A stretch of 64,000 bases of DNA from Skeletonema tropicum (lineage: Eukaryota > Bacillariophyta > Thalassiosirophyceae > Thalassiosirales > Thalassiosiraceae): assembly GCA_037178625.1 (NCBI GenBank), contig CM074133.1, positions 3,162,001-3,226,000 of the forward strand. The letters run 5' to 3'. The translations under genes and the position numbers were made by a program. Positions 34,591 through 46,279 of this stretch are shown here, piece by piece; the first letter of the stretch is position 1; every line of letters begins with the position of its first letter. A model generated the notes under the pieces. That model saw only the letters and a program-made list of their open reading frames with translations, made no database searches and was not told the origin of the DNA.

Positions 34591-35082
34591 TGCTGAAGGA
34601 GAGTGGAAGTACGGGAGTGGAAATGCAGTGTAATAATGGATGAACAGTGGACACTAAAGCGCCTAACTCATTGACGATTATAATATTAATAATGCTGTAG
34701 TGCTGCTCTTGTGCTCATTGTCGTCTTCATGAGGGGAGGAGGAGTGAAATTCTCGTAACGCGGACGGAAAATGACGGTCGTCGGCGTGACTGAAACTAAA
34801 AAGATGAGATGAAAACTAAATTCACACATCAATTCACAGCACATTCGACTTCATCAGCAACACCGCCTCCGATAGCGCCTCGGTCGATGCGTTGGTGGCG
34901 GCCGATCATCATAACCTTCCATACATTGGCCTAGCTAACTCCCCCTGGCTTTACTGCGCTCAAATCGACCGACAAGGCGCTCGGAACGGACAGTCCGAAA
35001 ATTCATCTCATCTCAACGGGACAGACTCGTCCAACGGGACAGATTAGTTTTAGACTGGTACACCGTTACAATCTACTCGATC

Positions 35083-35559
35083 CTACAGATTTCCTGCGTA
35101 TTCTCGAATGGAATATTGATGAAGCTTACCGAGCTTCCTTGCTCTCAATACGGCCCTCCTTGTCTCGGCTGACGAGGCAAGAGCAATATCCTCAGACCTC
35201 GAACTTGCACTTGCAGACGGCCCCTGTATCGCCTGCTCTGCAAGAACTGCACGTACGCATCGACGTCTGCAAGCCTGCACCTCAACCGCAGAGGCAGGTG
35301 TGAGTAGATGAGAAATACCAATCCAGGAGCCGCTATCTTCTTCGGACCCCGAATCATTTGCACGAGCTCGGACTTGGAGGACTTCTTGCTTGATGTTTCG
35401 TTTCATTGAGTTGTATTCTGCCTTGGTGTACCACAGCTGGCTTCTGTTTTTGTCCTCGTGCCTAGGAACAATGTGAAGCTATGCTGTTTTGGCAAAACGC
35501 ACATCCACCTGCGCATGGTTGCGTTTGAGTGGGAAGTCTACGATCAATTCTGACGCCAC
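35083..35559 (-). pseudogene. WYT-motif family protein, copy A (inactivated)
   Basis: Copy of the family at 38959 and 40323. The start codon has become GTG (VASELIVDFPLKRNH), the frame has a TAG just after DVRFAKTA, and LWYTKAEYNSMKRNIKQEV onward is intact to EYAGNL at 35083. The 4.4-kb element sits in its 3' flank 25 bp from the stop codon. Confidence 0.75.
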
Positions 35560-35564
35560 GTTGA

Positions 35565-37554
35565 TGTCCTGTTGTGCATTTTTGAGATGATGTGAGATGT
35601 AATGATGTAAGTCAAAGCTGTACGAGTTGCATTCCAAGTAATCTGGATATTATGGTACAAGAGAGCAGCTGCACGTCAACAGCTGTGGCTAGCTGAGCCA
35701 ATCTACCTCAATCCCCGGTTCTCCCTTCAAATTTTGATGCACAGCTCTCTTTTTATTAACCCGGATTTGCAACCCAAGTAGCAAAAGCTACAGAGGAATT
35801 CGTAGCGTGATTGTACAAGAAAAATATATCACGGTCTAGAGCGTGATATGTCGGTCTTAATTGTGGTATTTTATGGTCATTTTGCAACCGAAGTTGCAAA
35901 AATCCTTGCAAAAGAGCATGCTTTTTGCAACTTTTGCAACCCAAAGTAAACGCAGTGTGACAGCGCAGAGCGGTCATTGGTCACACTTCTTTTCCATCGC
36001 TCCGGCGCCGATCACCTTCACCATACACCCAGCTAGATCAATACACTATATCTACGACCCTGCGATAGCAGAATACATTGTATGACGATCCCATAAGGCA
36101 GCTGAATCGAATGGTATGACTGATGTCGAACGTTGTATCGATCATCAAGTAGAGAGACGTATCGTCCGTACCATACATCAGCGGCTGACATGTATTGTGT
36201 ATGTGTGCCGACACAAATATCACGTTTGGTGTGATAAAAAACGAGTAATAGTATAGAGGATTATGTACGGGGTACAATGATGGCGCACTCACTAAATGGG
36301 TATAGCGTACTGATCGATGAGTCAGTTGGCAACAGAAGATGAAAATTGACTTGAAAAGCTAATTCAACACACATAATGCACACATGTTCATGGCATTGGG
36401 TAATAGGATATATTAGACCTTCCCGAGACACTGCAAATAACATAACATTAAATAGCAACTAATTTTTGACGGAAAGTGTGTACGACTTATCATAGAAAAG
36501 CATTTTGCCATATGATCGGATGTCAGGGATAAGCGCAACACACATCACCCTCTTAGACGACAACATTGACGACCACTCGTCTGAGCACACTCAGAGATAG
36601 CCACGATAACATTTCAAACAACATCTCACGTCCATGCTGTTGTCCTAGATGTGATCTTCCCTCTGGCTTGGATTGATTTGCTGTGAGAAACTTACATGCT
36701 GCAAGCACACGCGTGCCTCTTTTTCAATGATGCTCTCAGTGATTGTATAATAACGCTAATGACGACGATCGACGGCTCTGACGGAAGCTGACAATATGCA
36801 ATACCATTTCATGGCCAATGGCGATGGCTGAACGACGACCCAAGGGCAAAAGAAGCGGATGTCATGGTAGGCATGTCTTGTGTCTTTGTCTTGGTCATAG
36901 AGAAAAATCACATCTTGCAAATCTTTTTACGTGATTTGACATGTGTGACTACTATGTGACCATGTATGTGATTACACGGTTGCAAAAATAGTTGCAAATA
37001 TGTACTCCGAGTACAAGCATAATAATTGTGTATATGGTCCATAGATCTCAGGTGGCACTCTGGCACTACTACCATCTTCACTACTTGAACTTACGTAGTT
37101 TGAGGTCTTAGATACTTAGTTGCACGCGGAAAAATTGAACGATGATCCCATGCTCGTCGTCATTGATGATGAGGCTTAATCCGTGTAAAAGGCCTAGTAC
37201 AATCATAGAAGCAGTGAAGTTGTTTCGTTTCATTTTTAGCGTAATTTATCTCAACCCCTTGATTTTTCTTCCTTCAAATGTGCACGCACAGCTCTCCAAT
37301 ACTTCTTACATACAGACCCAAACTTGAACTTGCGTACTTAGTTCGAAGTCACGGAAGGCCTTATCATCTCAGATGTGCGAACTCATTTTGCGAACCCCTC
37401 TATCGAATTCGCTCATCCCAAGCCCCACATCACAGGCCACGCCACACAGGTATGCGTCACATAACACCGCGCGCTTGCTAAAATGCGAACTCTGGATTAT
37501 CCAACGACTACTTATACTTATCATACATACATCTCCTACATATCTCTATCAAAA
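35565..37554. other. Two-kilobase stretch without recognisable genes
   Basis: No supported gene on either strand. TTGCAA-rich segments occur at 35765-35945 (GTTGCAAAAATCCTTGCAAA, TTTTGCAACTTTTGCAACCC) and again at 36980-37000 (GGTTGCAAAAATAGTTGCAA), perhaps remains of one element. Confidence 0.45.
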
Positions 37555-38296: not shown

Positions 38297-38958
38297 CCTT
38301 AGGACCAACAAAAAACCATGACCAGTTGTGGTGAAGTGGCAGAAGCGTCATTCGGTATGGCGTTGGGTCGGTTCTTTTAACTTGTATCGGGAGGGGAGAG
38401 GTACATTCCTTTACAGAAACAGAGATAGATAGAGCTGCCACTTGAAATGTGCATGGCATCTCTACGTGTTGCTGGCTAGGTACGTCTTGCTAAGACACAG
38501 AGGAGAGAGGAGTTGTGGAAAAAGAACTTTATGGTATCTCCGTGCAAAACATGCCGTACTCCCTCTGCCTTTGCAGACCTGTATCCAGAACAATTAATTA
38601 TAATGGCTTCTCTCCACACACTCACTCTCCAACCTGGTGCTCACCTTGATCGGCCATAAAGATGTTGCAGCATGGACAATTTGAATCTGGCAGATTACGA
38701 TAATCTGATAGTAATGATTCTGACTTCAAAATAACTCATTTAGCTACTTTAATTATGGCATACCAATTACAATATACTTGATCCTAGGCAGATGGTTGAA
38801 GGAATTAGATTGTGAGCGTAGTACTGTTTAGTAATGGCCGAACACGTCAACGCAAGCTACAGTAGTGGACCAAAATATAATATCATTAAGTCTGAAATGT
38901 CTATTAATTACACTACTTTTGTTACTCTTACAGTACACAGATTACAATCTACTCGATC
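38297..38958. other. Gap containing the flank of unit B
   Basis: No gene. From about 38790 it holds the unit flank (GATTGTGAGCGTAGTACTG, TTACTCTTACAGTACACAG), including the intact TA site corresponding to the insertion point of the 4.4-kb element. Confidence 0.5.
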
Positions 38959-39429
38959 CTACAGATTTCCTGCGTATTCTCGAATGGAATATTGATGAAG
39001 CTTACCGAGCTTCCTTGCTCTCAATACGGCCCTCCTTGTCTCGGCTGACGAGGCAAGAGCAATATCCTCAGACCTCGAACTTGCACTTGCAGACGGCCCC
39101 TGTATCGCTTGCTCTGCAAGAACTGCACGTACGCATCGACATCTGCAAGCCTCCACCTCAACCGCAGAGGCAGGTGTGAGTATATGAGAAATACCAATCC
39201 AGGAGCCTATATCTTCTTCGGACGCCGAATCATTTGCACGAGCTCGGACTTGGAGGACGTCTTGCTTGATGTTTCGTTCCATTGAGTTGTATTCTGCCTC
39301 GGTGTACCACAGCTCGTTTTTGTTATTATCCTTGTGAACAATGTAAAGCTGTGCTGTTTTGGCAAAACGCACATCCACATACGCATGGTTGCGTTTGAGT
39401 GGGAAGTCTACGATCAATTCTGACGCCAT
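38959..39429 (-). CDS. WYT-motif family protein, copy B (intact)
   Basis: 156 residues from the ATG at 39429 (MASELIVDFPLKRNH). Conserved features shared by all copies here: VDVRFAKTAQLYIVH, NELWYTEAEYNSMERNIKQ, QVRARANDSASEED, a His/Leu/Thr-Pro segment (GISHILTPASAVEVEACR) and the C-terminal block IALASSAETRRAVLRARKLG. I believe similar proteins of unknown function are common in diatoms. No signal or membrane segment. Only this copy keeps every block in frame. An upstream in-frame start at 39498 is possible. Confidence 0.7.
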   Translation of the reverse strand: MASELIVDFPLKRNHAYVDVRFAKTAQLYIVHKDNNKNELWYTEAEYNSMERNIKQDVLQVRARANDSASEEDIGSWIGISHILTPASAVEVEACRCRCVRAVLAEQAIQGPSASASSRSEDIALASSAETRRAVLRARKLGKLHQYSIREYAGNL

Positions 39430-39699
39430 GTTGCTGTCCTGTTGTGTATTTTTGAGATGATGTGAGATGTGAGTCAAAGCTGTATGAACTGCAAGCATTG
39501 CAACAATCGAAGTAATTTGGATTTACGATTAATAAGTAGTGGGCAGCAGCATAGCAGCAGCAGTCAAGAGATGAAGCTGGTAGGAGTATGATGTTTGATC
39601 CCCGGGAAAAACTCATACTTGAAGCTTGAACTTCAGTAACGAAATAAAGCCTATCATGAAAAGCCTTTCATGAATCCTGTGGACTTGATCTCGTTATCT

Positions 39700-39870: not shown

Positions 39871-40322
39871 TCAGGTCCTGTTTCGTATACGAGCTGAGCA
39901 GGCGTGCAATCCAAGTAAGCTGGATAAGACGTTGGAACAAGAGGCAGCGGCGCGTCGCTGAGAGCTGAGCAAGTGTGAGGTCGCAATCTTCAAGTAATCT
40001 GGAAAACAATGCCTTATCAACAATTGACGATGACGAACGTGGGACCATACTTAGCATCCGCGTAATTTCTCCGAGTTCGAGAGAGAGAAATGCAGGTGAG
40101 TCTCTCTCTTTAGGCTATGTATCTGTTTGCAGCTGCTAACCAAGCTTCACGTTGAAATTCAAGTTGACCGAGCGGCATGATTGAAGGAATAAGATTGTGA
40201 GCGTAGTACTGTGTAGTAATGGCCGAACACTTCAACGCAAGCTACAGCATTAAGTCTGAAATGTCTATTAATTACACTACTTTTGTTACTCTTACAGTAC
40301 ACCGATTACAATCTACTCGATC

Positions 40323-40751
40323 CTACAGATTTCCTGCGTATTCTCGAATGGAATATTGTTGAAGCTTACCGAGCTTCCTTGCTCTCAATACGGCCCTCCT
40401 TGTCTCGGCTGACGAGGCAAGAGCAATATCCTCAGACCTCAAACTTGCACTTGCAGTCAGTACCTGTATCGCCTGCTCTGAGAGAATTGCACAGGTGAGA
40501 AGATGAGCAATTCCAATCCAGAAGCCTCTATCTTCTTCGGACGCCGAATCATTTGCACGAGATCGGACTTGGAGGACGTCTTGCTTGATGTTTCGTTCCA
40601 TTGAGTTGTATTCTGCCTTGGTGTACCACAGCTCGTTTTTGCTATTATCCTTGTGAACAATGTTGTGAAGCTGTGCTGTTTTGGCAAAACGCACATCCAC
40701 ATGCGCATGGTTGCGTTTGAGTGGGAAGTCTACGACCAATTCTGACGCCAT
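40323..40751 (-). CDS. WYT-motif family protein, copy C (internal deletion)
   Basis: 142 residues from the ATG at 40751. Same blocks as copy B (DVRFAKTAQLHNIVHKDN, NELWYTKAEYNSMERNIKQD, IALASSAETRRAVLRARKLG), but the TPASAVEVEACR.RCVRAV segment is missing: HLLTCAILSEQAIQ joins the flanks. The frame is kept. It may be a functional variant or an early decay product. The 3' flank holds an intact TA site, an empty version of the 4.4-kb element insertion. Confidence 0.6.
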   Translation of the reverse strand: MASELVVDFPLKRNHAHVDVRFAKTAQLHNIVHKDNSKNELWYTKAEYNSMERNIKQDVLQVRSRANDSASEEDRGFWIGIAHLLTCAILSEQAIQVLTASASLRSEDIALASSAETRRAVLRARKLGKLQQYSIREYAGNL

Positions 40752-41085
40752 GTTGATGTCCCGTTGTGTATTTTTGAGATGATGTGAGGTGTAGGTCAAA
40801 GCTGTATGTGAGTCAAAGCTTTACGAGCTGAGCAAGCGCGGAATCCAATTCATTTGTATGTAATAACGTTGAACAAGTCGGGCAGCTGTAGCTGCGCGTC
40901 AAGAGATGAAGCTGGTAGGAGTATAAGCCTGACCAGCCCAAACCTTCAGAGGAACAAAACCTCTTTTTCCTTTTTTTTTTGCCGCCACCGACCTGCCGCT
41001 GGTCACAAGACTGACATCATACACAAGACTCCTCGAGACTCATCTGTTCCAATGCGATGACCATAATACTATCGCAGTAGCAAAG

Positions 41086-41994
41086 ATGAGTGCCTCCATT
41101 ACTAGTGCAGCTATCCCTGCTACGGCGTTGCCACGCAGGCACACCTGTGTATGTGGCATTGAAGAGTGCAGACTCTTGACCATATGTTTTCAGAGTTGTA
41201 ATGACTTCAGGGGCCAGTTCATGCAGTTGCCGACAATTGATGGGGAGAGGCTCGCTGACCTCAAGGAATTCAAACTCAAAAGATCTCTCGTTCATCTCCA
41301 GATGGCGTCACCGAATACAAATAGAAAGAATTGGATATCTTCGACTGACAATCGGGACCAAAGGGCAAACGTAGTCTCGCCGGATTCGTCTAACACCGCA
41401 GCGGATAATGACAACAACAACTGCGAGGATGAGGTGGAGAGTGACGACACCAATAATATCAATACTACCGAGGTGAAGGTGCGTCTTAGAATGAACGGTC
41501 GTCTTAAACCGAAACCTTGCGCTGCAGTGCTAAACAGCATTGCGCTCAAAAACTGCAAAGAAGCATCATCTGCAGTGGAGAAATCGAAATACATTGCTAA
41601 TCACCACTTTCATCCTGCAATATTACAAGCAATGTTAGATCAGGGGAAGAGCAGCATTGATTGCATGCCCGTACAACTTATTCAGGATTTGGATTTGGTT
41701 GACAATGGTTATACCAACGCTGATCTGTTCCATGGTGAAGTGCCGGAAGGCAAAACTTCTCCGGTTTACGTCCCAGTACCCAGTTACAAAAATGCAAAAG
41801 ACGACTACAAATTAGTATCCAACCGGTGGCGATTGAATTGTATGATCAAAGAATGTCGCATGAAGCGCAGGGGCAACTCTACACTAGCTCCTAGAGGAGA
41901 GGATCATATTCTGAGACCAGTAGAGAAGCGTGGTAAAATAGATGCTCTAGCTGCGATGAATTATGAAAATGTTGAAGATGCTGGATTGTACTGA
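41086..41994 (+). CDS. Element-borne protein with Cys-containing N-terminus, unknown function
   Basis: 302 residues, single exon. The N-terminus has a possible zinc-binding cluster (HTCVCGIEECRLLTICFQSC). A low-complexity acidic and Asn-rich stretch follows (residues 100-135), then a C-terminal half with KSKYIANHHFHPAILQAM, DLFHGEVPEGKTSPVYVPVP and basic KECRMKRRGN. I do not recognise the family. Lying within the TIRs together with a nuclease, it is a candidate DNA-binding or transposition protein. Its 3' end overlaps the convergent nuclease gene by 34 bp, which argues that both are retained as a compact cassette. Confidence 0.65.
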   Translation: MSASITSAAIPATALPRRHTCVCGIEECRLLTICFQSCNDFRGQFMQLPTIDGERLADLKEFKLKRSLVHLQMASPNTNRKNWISSTDNRDQRANVVSPDSSNTAADNDNNNCEDEVESDDTNNINTTEVKVRLRMNGRLKPKPCAAVLNSIALKNCKEASSAVEKSKYIANHHFHPAILQAMLDQGKSSIDCMPVQLIQDLDLVDNGYTNADLFHGEVPEGKTSPVYVPVPSYKNAKDDYKLVSNRWRLNCMIKECRMKRRGNSTLAPRGEDHILRPVEKRGKIDALAAMNYENVEDAGLY

Positions 41995-43043
41995 TATGTT
42001 TCATTCAAGGACATACTGCAAAGCTTCACAGTGTATTCACCTGACAAGAATGCCGACTTCGGACTTTCGTCCGGACTAATTGGTATGACCTTGTATGCCG
42101 GCGCATGCTCCCAATAATTCATCGAGTGACGGCAATTTGCTGGTGTATCGTGGTTGTTAATATATTCATTTATGTACTCTTGCTTTTGTTGCTCGCTTAA
42201 ACGTAGATATACCTTCATCCGTGCTATGACATCTTTTGTCCCTGAGCCGGTTAGCCCTCCTGGTAGGTTGTCATTCCCCAACATCTGAACGAGGAATCTA
42301 AGATCACGACCGTCAACGGGTTCTTCCACATGAAAAAGATTGGGCAGAACTTGTGTTGTCAGTTTATGATAGCTCCTCACATCCACTTTGCCCTCTAGCG
42401 TCATTTCCGACACCACATACGTAACTCCCAATGCAGTGAAGTCACTGTCAGTAGATATTGCTGCATCAATGATACCTTGTCGTTGTAGAGAGACAACCTG
42501 GGTATCAGTCTCAAATGGAGATCCAACTACACTGACTTTGTCTGCTTTCTTTGCTACAGTAATGACTTCATATGATATGTCTTGTCGGGGAATCATCAGC
42601 TTCTTTTGGATTGCAAGAACAGATGAAATATCATGCGAATCGGGATCTTCAAACATTTCCTTGAGTTGTTGCTTCAGAGACACTAGATCTACTTGGGATT
42701 GGCGGATGTCATGCTCCTCGTTTTTCAGCGGATTGCGTTGCCCATCAAACACAAGAACGACATGGAACTTGTACTTATTGAGGAGTCTAATCCTAGACAT
42801 AAAGTAGTCAACAACAGCGGTCACAGGAACGGGTGGTTTCGCATGATATTGCGATAACACTTTACTATCACTCGTGGGATTGCTCAACGCACGACGAAGC
42901 CAAACAGATGCATCGACAGCTATCACCGGCCAATAGGATTTATCTTCTTTAAGAGTGCGTATTATTTCTAACCGCAGCTCGTGCAACGTGGTCTTATCAA
43001 GACAGAGCTGGGTAAACCATTTCTGATCGGCCTTAATTCCCAT
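41961..43043 (-). CDS. FEN1/XPG-family structure-specific nuclease, element-borne
   Basis: 360 residues from the only early ATG (43043), beginning MGIK like FEN1, whose N-terminal Gly lies near the active site. Metal-binding acidic residues of the family are visible: VIAVDASVWL (first Asp), VVLVFDGQRNPLK (second Asp), SPFETDTQ (E-x-D in place of E-x-E), and STDSDFTALG (D-x-D). The helix-two-turn-helix region is LRFLVQMLGNDNLPGG. No PIP box is obvious at the C-terminus. Family enzymes cut 5' flaps or exonucleolytically degrade DNA. Because it lies inside an inserted element, a role in transposition or flap processing of the element is inferred. A single acidic substitution aside, it looks catalytically competent. 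Confidence 0.85.
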   Translation of the reverse strand: MGIKADQKWFTQLCLDKTTLHELRLEIIRTLKEDKSYWPVIAVDASVWLRRALSNPTSDSKVLSQYHAKPPVPVTAVVDYFMSRIRLLNKYKFHVVLVFDGQRNPLKNEEHDIRQSQVDLVSLKQQLKEMFEDPDSHDISSVLAIQKKLMIPRQDISYEVITVAKKADKVSVVGSPFETDTQVVSLQRQGIIDAAISTDSDFTALGVTYVVSEMTLEGKVDVRSYHKLTTQVLPNLFHVEEPVDGRDLRFLVQMLGNDNLPGGLTGSGTKDVIARMKVYLRLSEQQKQEYINEYINNHDTPANCRHSMNYWEHAPAYKVIPISPDESPKSAFLSGEYTVKLCSMSLNETYQYNPASSTFS

Positions 43044-43423
43044 GGTTAGAGTAATGGAACAATTATTATTGGGTTGGTTGTTGGCAATGACATCCAATCT
43101 TGTTTGGTGTTGGAGGTCGCTTGGTCGGTCGTCGGTCAGAAAAAAATGAGAAAAAAGGTTTTGTTCCCCTCTTAGACGGTCGAAAGACAGGCTTATGATG
43201 TTTGATCCCGGATGTCATCGTCATCTGCTACTCCTCTTTGATTTTTGGATGTGAGTGTGTAAGTAGTAGTATCATCTAAGTTGTAGACTTCCTACAAGCA
43301 ACACACGCGATTTGGAGTTCTCATCGAAAGGATGAGAACACAACCAATCACCTTGCTTGCCACATCAGAAGAGTTGCGGATATTTACACAGCAACAAAAT
43401 ATTCGGTAGCAATAAAGAGAAAT

Positions 43424-45029
43424 ATGAGCGACAAAGAGAACAACAGCATCAAGAGAAGATGGCACGATGCCTACCAAAAGGCGCTAACTCAATCACCAAC
43501 TCGAAGAAAGAATGGAGCCGTCCGAATATTCGAGCGTATTGCCGGCTTGCCACCTCTTCCAACAGAGAAGCACGCATATAACCTCTATAATAGATTAATG
43601 TCGGATTTGCGAGAGATGGAGGAGTTTGAGGAGAGATACCCTGTAGCGATCGTTGCTTTTGGTGGAGCTCGATTGAGAAGTGATGATCCGTACTACTTTT
43701 TAGCCCAGCAGTTGGGAGGGATCTTGGCCATGGAGGGTTTCCTTGTTAGAACTGGAGCGGGTGAGTCATCATGTTTGCAATCGTGATATTATCAAGCTCT
43801 CGTATCGATCTCACCTGTTTTATCTCTTTGAAGGACCTGGAATTATGGACGCTGTGCCAGTGGGCTACAAACAAGAGCTGAAAAGATCATTGACGTCGGC
43901 AATTGATCGGCAAACTCAAGGGGTGAGTAGACAATGACGATTTAATGACACAGAATTCCTTACACTTCTCTCACCCATGTTCATGTAGATAAGAATAGAA
44001 CTTCCCTTCGAGCAAGTAATCTCGCCCAGCATTGATACCATTACAATGATGAAGACATTTGCCATTAGAAGAACAGCACTGATATGGAATGCAAGAGGTA
44101 TAGTTGTATTTCCTGGCGGGCTAGGAACATTGAATGAAATGTTTGAAGCATGGCGAGGTGCAATAAATCGAAAGGTGGATTGTCCGATCGTAGTACTGCC
44201 ATCTAAATTCTATGCTCCACTTCTAGATGCCATCGAAGAGGTTGCCGTCGTTGGACGCAGATTAATATCAGCCAGTGACTTTGGCTTGGTTCAAAAAGCA
44301 GAGAGTCCAATTGATGCAGAACGCTTATTAACGCAACCCCTGCGTGAGAAAGAAATGGGCACCCAATTAACATTGAGAGAGAAATTGATCTACCTTAGAC
44401 ATGAGTTAGGCAGAGGTCTGACTGTCATTTCGGAACTTCCACCGGCAGTTGTGCTCATTGGATCTAGATATTTCCTAAACAGAAATGACCCAGAAGTGCT
44501 CTTCTTGAGAGATCTTGTCAAAGCAGTCGTGACTACTTCAACTCTTGGTGTTAGGGTAGGAGTGCGTGGGCTTGTAGATGAAGTTGTCAATGAAGCGGTT
44601 GGTGAAGTAAGAGGATACAGAGAAGCTACCGACAACGTTATCCAAAGAGTCCTCATATCAGAAGACGTTGATAGCGGATGTCAAAATAGACCCGTCGATG
44701 CCTGTTTCAAGAGTCTTGTTGCACATAGAGAGACACTCAACCACAACGCTACCGCTGCCTTCTTCCTACCATCGGATCTACCCAGTTTGGACATTCTTTT
44801 CGCCTTGGTCTGCGAGATACAAACTAAGAGACGACAGAGGATCCCAGTATACCTTGTTGGACTTGAATTCTGGCAGCCAATAGTGGATGGACTAAGGGAG
44901 ACGATGAAGGGTGATTACGATGGGCAGTTCATAAAATACGATGATTTGGATATCATGACCGTGATAGGCACGACACCAAGAGATCTTGAGATTGCCATGG
45001 CAGAGATTCAGTCGACCAAATACAAGTAG
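43424..45029 (+). CDS. LOG-family (lysine-decarboxylase-like) protein with two LOG-like halves
   Basis: Three exons: 43424-43760, 43834-43922, 43989-45029, joined by GT-AG introns of 73 and 66 bp into 488 residues. The first half is a LOG/PpnN-type Rossmann fold: VAIVAFGGARLRSDDP, GAGPGIMDAV and the hallmark VFPGGLGTLNEMFEAW. Such enzymes (LONELY GUY, PpnN) hydrolyse nucleoside 5'-monophosphates to free the base, including cytokinin ribotides. The second half repeats the fold in degenerate form: VVLIGSRYFLNRNDPE, and FFLPSDLPSLDILFALV in place of the PGG.GT.NE loop, so it is probably non-catalytic. Cytoplasmic (no targeting signal). Activity on cytokinins is not established by sequence alone. 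Confidence 0.85.
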
Positions 45030-45310: not shown

Positions 45311-46279
45311 ATGAGCGAGGAAATTGAGGCGGTAAACAAATCAAGTTGTGCTTCATGCGGCATCGCAGAAGTTGATGACATCAAATTGATGAAAAGTGCT
45401 GACTGCGATCTCGTTCGACATTGTGTCGATGAATTTCAACGTGATCATGCATGGCAGCACGAAGAAGTGTGCAAGAATAGTGTGGCTGAATTGCGTGACG
45501 ATCTGTTATTCAAGCAGCCGGAGAGCACCCATCTTGGGGATTGTCCCATCTGCTGTTTACCTTTGCCGCTCTGTTGCAGAGATGAAGAACTGTCGGAATC
45601 TGTCTTGATGATGATGAGTACTTGTTGCAGTAAGATCATTTGTAATGGCTGCTGTTATGCCGATCTAATGCGACACGTTGAAGCGGGGAATCATCCGACG
45701 TGCCCATTCTGTCGAAAACCTGTGCCCGAAACGATTGAAGAAAATGATAAGCAAAGGATGAAAAGAATCGAAGTGAATGATCCAGAAGCTTTGACCTTTC
45801 AAGGTCGTGAGCATTACGAGAAAGGAGACTTTAGTGGGGCATTTGAGTTATGGACAAAGTCTGCTGAATTGGGAGATATGGAGGCTCATTTTAGCCTGGG
45901 ACGTTTGTATCATGAGGGTGAAGGTGTTGAGAAGGACAGCGGGAAGGAAATGTACCATCTGGAAGAAGCTGCTATTGGAGGGCATCCCAAAGCTAGACAC
46001 GATCTTGGGTATATCGAGTGGGGCAATGGTAATATTGAAAGAGCAGTGAAACATTGCATCATCGCTGCCACGCAAGGAGAAGATGATTCAGTCGAGGCTC
46101 TAATATATGTATATAAGAGGGGATTTTTCAGCAAAGAGGAGCTTGCAGTTATTCTCCGTGCACACCAGGCGGCTGTAGACGCAACGAAGAGTCCGCAAAG
46201 GGAGGCAGCCAAAGCAAGTGGTATGTTCTCACATGGCGTGCATGTAGGAGCCAAAGAATTAAGCTCAAACCGCTGTTAG
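45311..46279 (+). CDS. MYND / RING-like / Sel1-repeat protein with damaged MYND
   Basis: 322 residues, intact frame. CASCGIAEV and HEEVC keep the outer MYND ligands, but two inner cysteines are lost: the CTAC pair reads SADC and the C-x3-C pair reads HCVDEF. Thus the second zinc site cannot form as in its siblings. The RING-like finger is intact but longer (CPICCLPLPLCCRDEELSES, STCCSKIICNGC, CPFCRK). Sel1 repeats follow (AFELWTKSAELGDMEAHFSLG, EEAAIGGHPKARHDLG, IERAVKHCIIAATQG), then the family C-terminus and an extra tail to SNRC. First of two tandem copies sharing upstream sequence (GCTGACGACCAACAATA-like, GCGGTTC.AAATG). Confidence 0.85.
   Translation: MSEEIEAVNKSSCASCGIAEVDDIKLMKSADCDLVRHCVDEFQRDHAWQHEEVCKNSVAELRDDLLFKQPESTHLGDCPICCLPLPLCCRDEELSESVLMMMSTCCSKIICNGCCYADLMRHVEAGNHPTCPFCRKPVPETIEENDKQRMKRIEVNDPEALTFQGREHYEKGDFSGAFELWTKSAELGDMEAHFSLGRLYHEGEGVEKDSGKEMYHLEEAAIGGHPKARHDLGYIEWGNGNIERAVKHCIIAATQGEDDSVEALIYVYKRGFFSKEELAVILRAHQAAVDATKSPQREAAKASGMFSHGVHVGAKELSSNRC

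Follow-up and report, generated by a model that had tools for sequence, protein, structure and literature searches.

Which enzyme moves a transposon that seems to encode a nuclease and no transposase? This question is raised by an element at positions 40925 to 43194 of a 64,000-nucleotide stretch of the diatom Skeletonema tropicum (GenBank assembly GCA_037178625.1, contig CM074133.1, positions 3,162,001 to 3,226,000 of the forward strand; the whole stretch is called the window), for which a preliminary description had named the nuclease as the main enzyme. The answer favored here, with a probability of about 0.8, is that the element arose by internal deletion from a diatom transposon of the cut-and-paste type in which a Harbinger/ISL2EU-type DDE transposase is paired with a nuclease of the EXO1/FEN1 superfamily. 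This pairing is recurrent in the genome. The features of the locus, in window coordinates, are:

40925..43194, no strand assigned: whole element, 2270 bp, defined by terminal inverted repeats (TIRs), AT flanks and a paralogous empty site
41086..41994, plus strand: N-terminal remnant of a transposase, with homology to residue 298 and CxCx4C and NHHF motifs
41961..43043, minus strand: EXO1/FEN1-superfamily nuclease, 360 amino acids (aa), XPG_N and XPG_I, C-terminal part missing
41979..41980, no strand assigned: putative internal-deletion junction, the transposase and nuclease homologies both ending at 41979
40925..40969, plus strand: left terminus of 45 bp, sharing 91% identity with the left end of miniature inverted-repeat transposable elements (MITEs)
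43151..43194, minus strand: right terminus of 44 bp, sharing 91% identity with the right end of the MITEs
40923..40924, no strand assigned: AT duplicated at the target, left of the element (22/23 two-ended copies are flanked by AT at both ends)
43195..43196, no strand assigned: AT duplicated at the target, right of the element (same 22/23 count; single AT at the paralogous site)
39580..39603, plus strand: paralogous unoccupied site, from the alignment of the joined flanks

A break point shared by two convergent genes

The two open frames are convergent, as had been described, but neither is whole, and both are broken off at 41979. When longer relatives were used for comparison (P0006 and P0009 for the first protein, P0012 and P0013 for the second), the alignments stopped at residue 298 and residue 355, respectively, and both residues correspond to base 41979. 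Past this base each frame is the antisense of the other gene, and the final residues of the plus-strand frame, AGLY, are read-through. Eleven database relatives of the plus-strand protein were found. P0006 is homologous to residues 40-298 of the remnant and then extends further, and P0009 is homologous to residues 205-298 and then extends into a DDE_Tnp_4 region, which is lost from the window copy. On the opposite strand, residues 1-355 of the window nuclease are homologous to P0012 (93%), and its relatives are longer than its own 360 aa (505 aa in P0012, 570 aa in P0013 and 430 aa in P0015). Since both gene homologies end on the same base, the window element is likely an internally deleted, non-autonomous derivative, and the shared stop is accounted for by one deletion that took the 3' portion of each convergent gene. 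The listed source of P0009, like that of P0012, is a 3756-bp NCBI contig, and this points to the same transposase-nuclease pair in another genome.

The cysteine-containing protein, formerly described as unknown, is read here as what remains of the N-terminal part of a transposase, a relative of which, P0009, has a DDE_Tnp_4 region. A transposase, reported as absent, is represented in the window element by this remnant, and the view of the nuclease as the main enzyme is left unsupported, the other gene being a shortened transposase. A transposon can come to look transposase-free when two convergent genes are shortened together by a single deletion.

Transposase and nuclease genes are paired elsewhere in the genome

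The positions of 31 XPG_I matches were compared with those of 43 P0009 matches and 47 DDE_Tnp_4 matches in the same genome; the three lists are possibly incomplete, only the best candidates having been scored. Fourteen of the 31 listed XPG_I matches (the window's included) had a transposase match no more than 3 kb away, where random placement would give 0.18, and six further XPG_I matches were found inside TIR pairs of a second family. This family 2 has the ends GAACC...GCCTG, with 40 end matches forming 17 pairs, and AT was present on both sides in 14 of the 16 pairs that were read. Internal deletions were also observed in it when copies were compared by eye: the 3' part of the transposase is lost in L076 and L077, the 3' part of the nuclease is also lost in L076, and L078 lacks the I-region of the nuclease. 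An element of 4579 bp on C13 contains divergent open frames for transposase and nuclease and has AT flanks, and a linkage on C23 lies in a rearranged locus. At this rearranged locus, one open frame (L003:1405-3243) contains nuclease and transposase C-terminal sequence. Other Harbinger-type families (L066-L071) were not among the transposase-nuclease pairs. In the preliminary description, homologs of both genes at single conserved loci without TIRs would have refuted the element; instead, relatives of both were repeatedly found within TIR elements in this genome. The earlier observation led to a recurrent transposase-nuclease pairing, for which no prior description was found in the literature searched.

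The plus-strand frame 41086-41994 gave no Pfam match. In the relatives, DDE_Tnp_4 was detected in L005 with an E value of 1.7e-7, above the cut-off, and in P0009 with 8.7e-4, below it; HTH_Tnp_4 was seen in P0006 at no better than E 0.012, below the cut-off, and no Pfam match to THAP was obtained in the window protein or in the relatives scanned. The CxCx4C motif was found in the window, family 2 and L128, and HHF in the window and family 2. Profile searches of the PDB gave no match with the transposase alignment and one chance-level match with the N-terminal alignment. This genome also has broken relatives of the plus-strand protein, on C13, C5 and C19. On C5, a retrotransposon-like frame of 1298 aa (L048:5882-9778) separates the two parts of a relative. 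Additionally, L128:911-2845 and L129 represent a related transposase family of 644 aa with a CVCGKPAC N-terminus.

The nuclease and its relatives

Seven acidic residues (D44, D100, E178, D180, D199, D201 and D258), which we take to be the FEN1 active site, are invariant in 12 aligned nuclease proteins, in agreement with the initial reading of this gene. These residues and the predicted fold both place the protein within the EXO1/FEN1 nuclease superfamily. Compared with Exonuclease 1 and FEN1 (Rad2 family), the acidic residues and the predicted fold are alike, whereas identity is only about 20%, the gene is transposon-borne, and relatives carry a SWIM-like C-terminal motif. Of the 20 relatives of the C13 protein taken from the database (P0018-P0037), 18 have this motif, CxCx7CxH, behind the nuclease core by a scripted search; it was seen by eye in L077, where Pfam SWIM gave an E value of 0.022, below the cut-off. 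A possible link of such a nuclease tail to YqaJ proteins was not recovered at the sensitivity of a search with the tail, which gave 20 proteins, none of them listed with YqaJ. In the nuclease tree the split between host and transposon proteins had a support of only 84/93, with long branches meeting, and capture from a host may have been single or multiple. In viral contigs, one pattern match and no relative were found.

Ends, target duplication and copies of the element

The left end starts with AAGCCTGACC at 40925 and the right end, as reverse complement, with AAGCCTGTCTTTCG at 43194. The block AACAAAACCT is common to both ends, and the TIRs are imperfect, with distinct left and right versions; both ends were confirmed at the positions first given for them. 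We examined 25 left ends, namely all 24 from a genome pattern search and one at C1:821 kb; a weak right end at C7:3540939, with no left partner, was excluded from the count. A matching right end was located within 4 kb of 23 of these 25 left ends, AT was found directly outside both ends in 22 of the 23 two-ended copies, and control patterns gave no match in the end searches; therefore, the ends of the window family are not a product of chance. For comparison, AT makes up 8.2% of the dinucleotides in the window. The copies have 21 different flank pairs, and two pairs of copies with common flanks resemble segmental duplicates. These recurring ends and AT duplications bear out the mobile element at 40925..43194. 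MITEs of 464-482 bp make up 18 of the 23 two-ended copies, and the complete 2.27-kb interior was found as a single copy in the genome. The copies on C12 (2.0 kb) and C15 (3.2 kb) were considered as autonomous partners and rejected, both being MITEs with foreign inserts.

The uninterrupted paralogous target noted near 39580 was also recovered. When joined via one AT, the flanks of the element align to 38816-39602 over 809 columns with 82.6% identity, the single AT lying at 39588-39589; the homology is long on the left and on the right ends 13 bases past the junction. The target duplication, estimated earlier at 2-3 bp, is present and measures exactly 2 bp, AT. A TA duplication was rejected because only a single AT is present at the paralogous site.

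Comparison with known transposons

According to the passages available, ISL2EU elements have AT duplications, a transposase with DDE, helix-turn-helix (HTH) and THAP parts, and a YqaJ exonuclease gene (PMC4482050, PMC9179366). The window lineage shares with them, as far as those passages go, the TIRs, the 5'-AT-3' duplication, a related DDE transposase and a nuclease as second gene, but the nuclease is YqaJ in ISL2EU and of EXO1/FEN1 type here. The 5'-AT-3' duplication was observed in the window family (22/23), family 2 (14/16) and the C13 element, and the relatives possess the DDE_Tnp_4-type transposase of PHIS. No match to YqaJ (PF09588) was obtained in the genome, where an XPG-type nuclease is present. 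The extended target A-AT-T is not seen in the window family, in which A precedes the left AT in 7/22 AT/AT copies (C in 11/22) and T follows the right AT in 8/22, as counted by eye; the single C13 element fits it. Because the AT duplication and the DDE kinship agree, no YqaJ was found and the extended target is lacking in the window family, the lineage is described as ISL2EU-like within PHIS and not as a member of ISL2EU.

The second gene of Harbinger encodes a Myb/SANT protein, in contrast to the nuclease found here. PIF/Harbinger elements resemble the window lineage in their related DDE transposase, two-gene plan and MITEs, and differ in their duplication, given as TWA in the portion of the source available (PMC4482050). 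KolobokE, from another superfamily, likewise combines a transposase with a lambda-exonuclease-like nuclease (PMC9587614), and differs in its TTAA duplications, transposase and PD-D/ExK nuclease. For either ISL2EU or Harbinger, no description of a nuclease of XPG/FEN1 type was recognized in the literature searched, in part the best 10-15 of hundreds to thousands of matches; this is weak evidence, and a description in Repbase is possible.

How the element may move and what the nuclease may do

A full-length copy, none of which was found in the assembly, would provide the transposase in trans; the Cys/His N-terminal module of this enzyme would bind the ends, and the enzyme would cut and join at AT. 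For the nuclease, we propose an action on 5' strands, in the place taken by the YqaJ exonuclease in ISL2EU. It might clear 5' flaps at a fresh insertion ahead of gap filling, or it might resect the donor break and lead to repair by copying. Degradation of 5' strands is shared by EXO1 and enzymes of lambda-exonuclease type, which is the reason for proposing a common job at 5' ends. We tentatively suggest, with the odds leaning somewhat against it, that an AT-targeting diatom lineage of PHIS swapped its YqaJ partner for an unrelated EXO1-type nuclease, and that a 5'-strand nuclease is a real and exchangeable part of these transposons. That nucleases of two unrelated folds occupy one slot would point to a real job on 5' strands, and this job would become testable as flap removal at the insertion versus resection at the donor break. 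No explanation of the job of the nuclease gene in ISL2EU-like transposons was found in the literature passages available.

Several observations weigh against a transposon built on this transposase-nuclease pair. No full-length transposase of the window family was found in the assembly, the next longer match having 36% identity; the predicted structure of the transposase N-terminus was unusable (predicted local distance difference test score, pLDDT, of 40), and the C13 transposase frame has no Cys N-terminal module. Independent cases of linkage are few, four when counted by family (window, family 2, C13 and C23), since the family-2 copies are not independent, and a possible fifth at C4:498145 is doubtful, its nuclease grouping with host rows. 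Moreover, an XPG_I match lies within 3 kb at only 12 of 39 transposase loci (13/43 matches) and is lacking at the other 27 (30/43 matches), and reading 4.5 kb of L128 and 3.5 kb of L129 revealed no nuclease open reading frame (ORF) longer than 150 and 120 aa, respectively. From these last two results, the nuclease is either not always needed or often lost.

The same two results favor a nuclease that is a passenger, a captured host gene that may aid persistence and not movement. This explanation deserves to be kept in view but is considered unlikely, as the association is found in four diverged families with both convergent and divergent gene order, the seven acidic residues are invariant between families at about 20% identity, and CxCx7CxH is kept in most database relatives of the C13 protein. 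Far less probable is a new type of transposon in which a nuclease and a DNA-binding protein bring about movement in place of a DDE transposase. The window copy does encode only those two products, and copies with its ends have moved, but an AT duplication is typical of ISL2EU in the passages available (PMC4482050), and a relative carries the DDE region. The supposed DNA-binding protein is a shortened transposase, and a transposase-free element was rejected on the common stop of both alignments at 41979. Least credible is the Academ-like element first suggested. Its non-autonomous state and XPG-superfamily gene stand, and some Academ transposons reportedly carry nucleases of XPG type (preliminary description), but Academ makes 3-4 bp duplications, against 2 bp of AT in 22/23 copies here, and the kin of the element are of Harbinger/ISL2EU type with a DDE_Tnp_4-type relative (no Academ profile was run).

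Surrounding repeats and downstream frames

The window element is located at the edge of one of several diverged repeat copies (38792-39602, 40186-40924 and also 35058-35631) with about 82-93% identity, and minus-strand ORFs of 179 and 158 aa are present in two of them. Downstream, the frames at 43424-45029, one of them with PGGLGTLNEMFEAW, presumably resemble a LOG-type lysine-decarboxylase-like protein, and the 322-aa ORF at 45311-46279 contains what we take to be Cys-rich zinc-finger-like and Sel1-like stretches.
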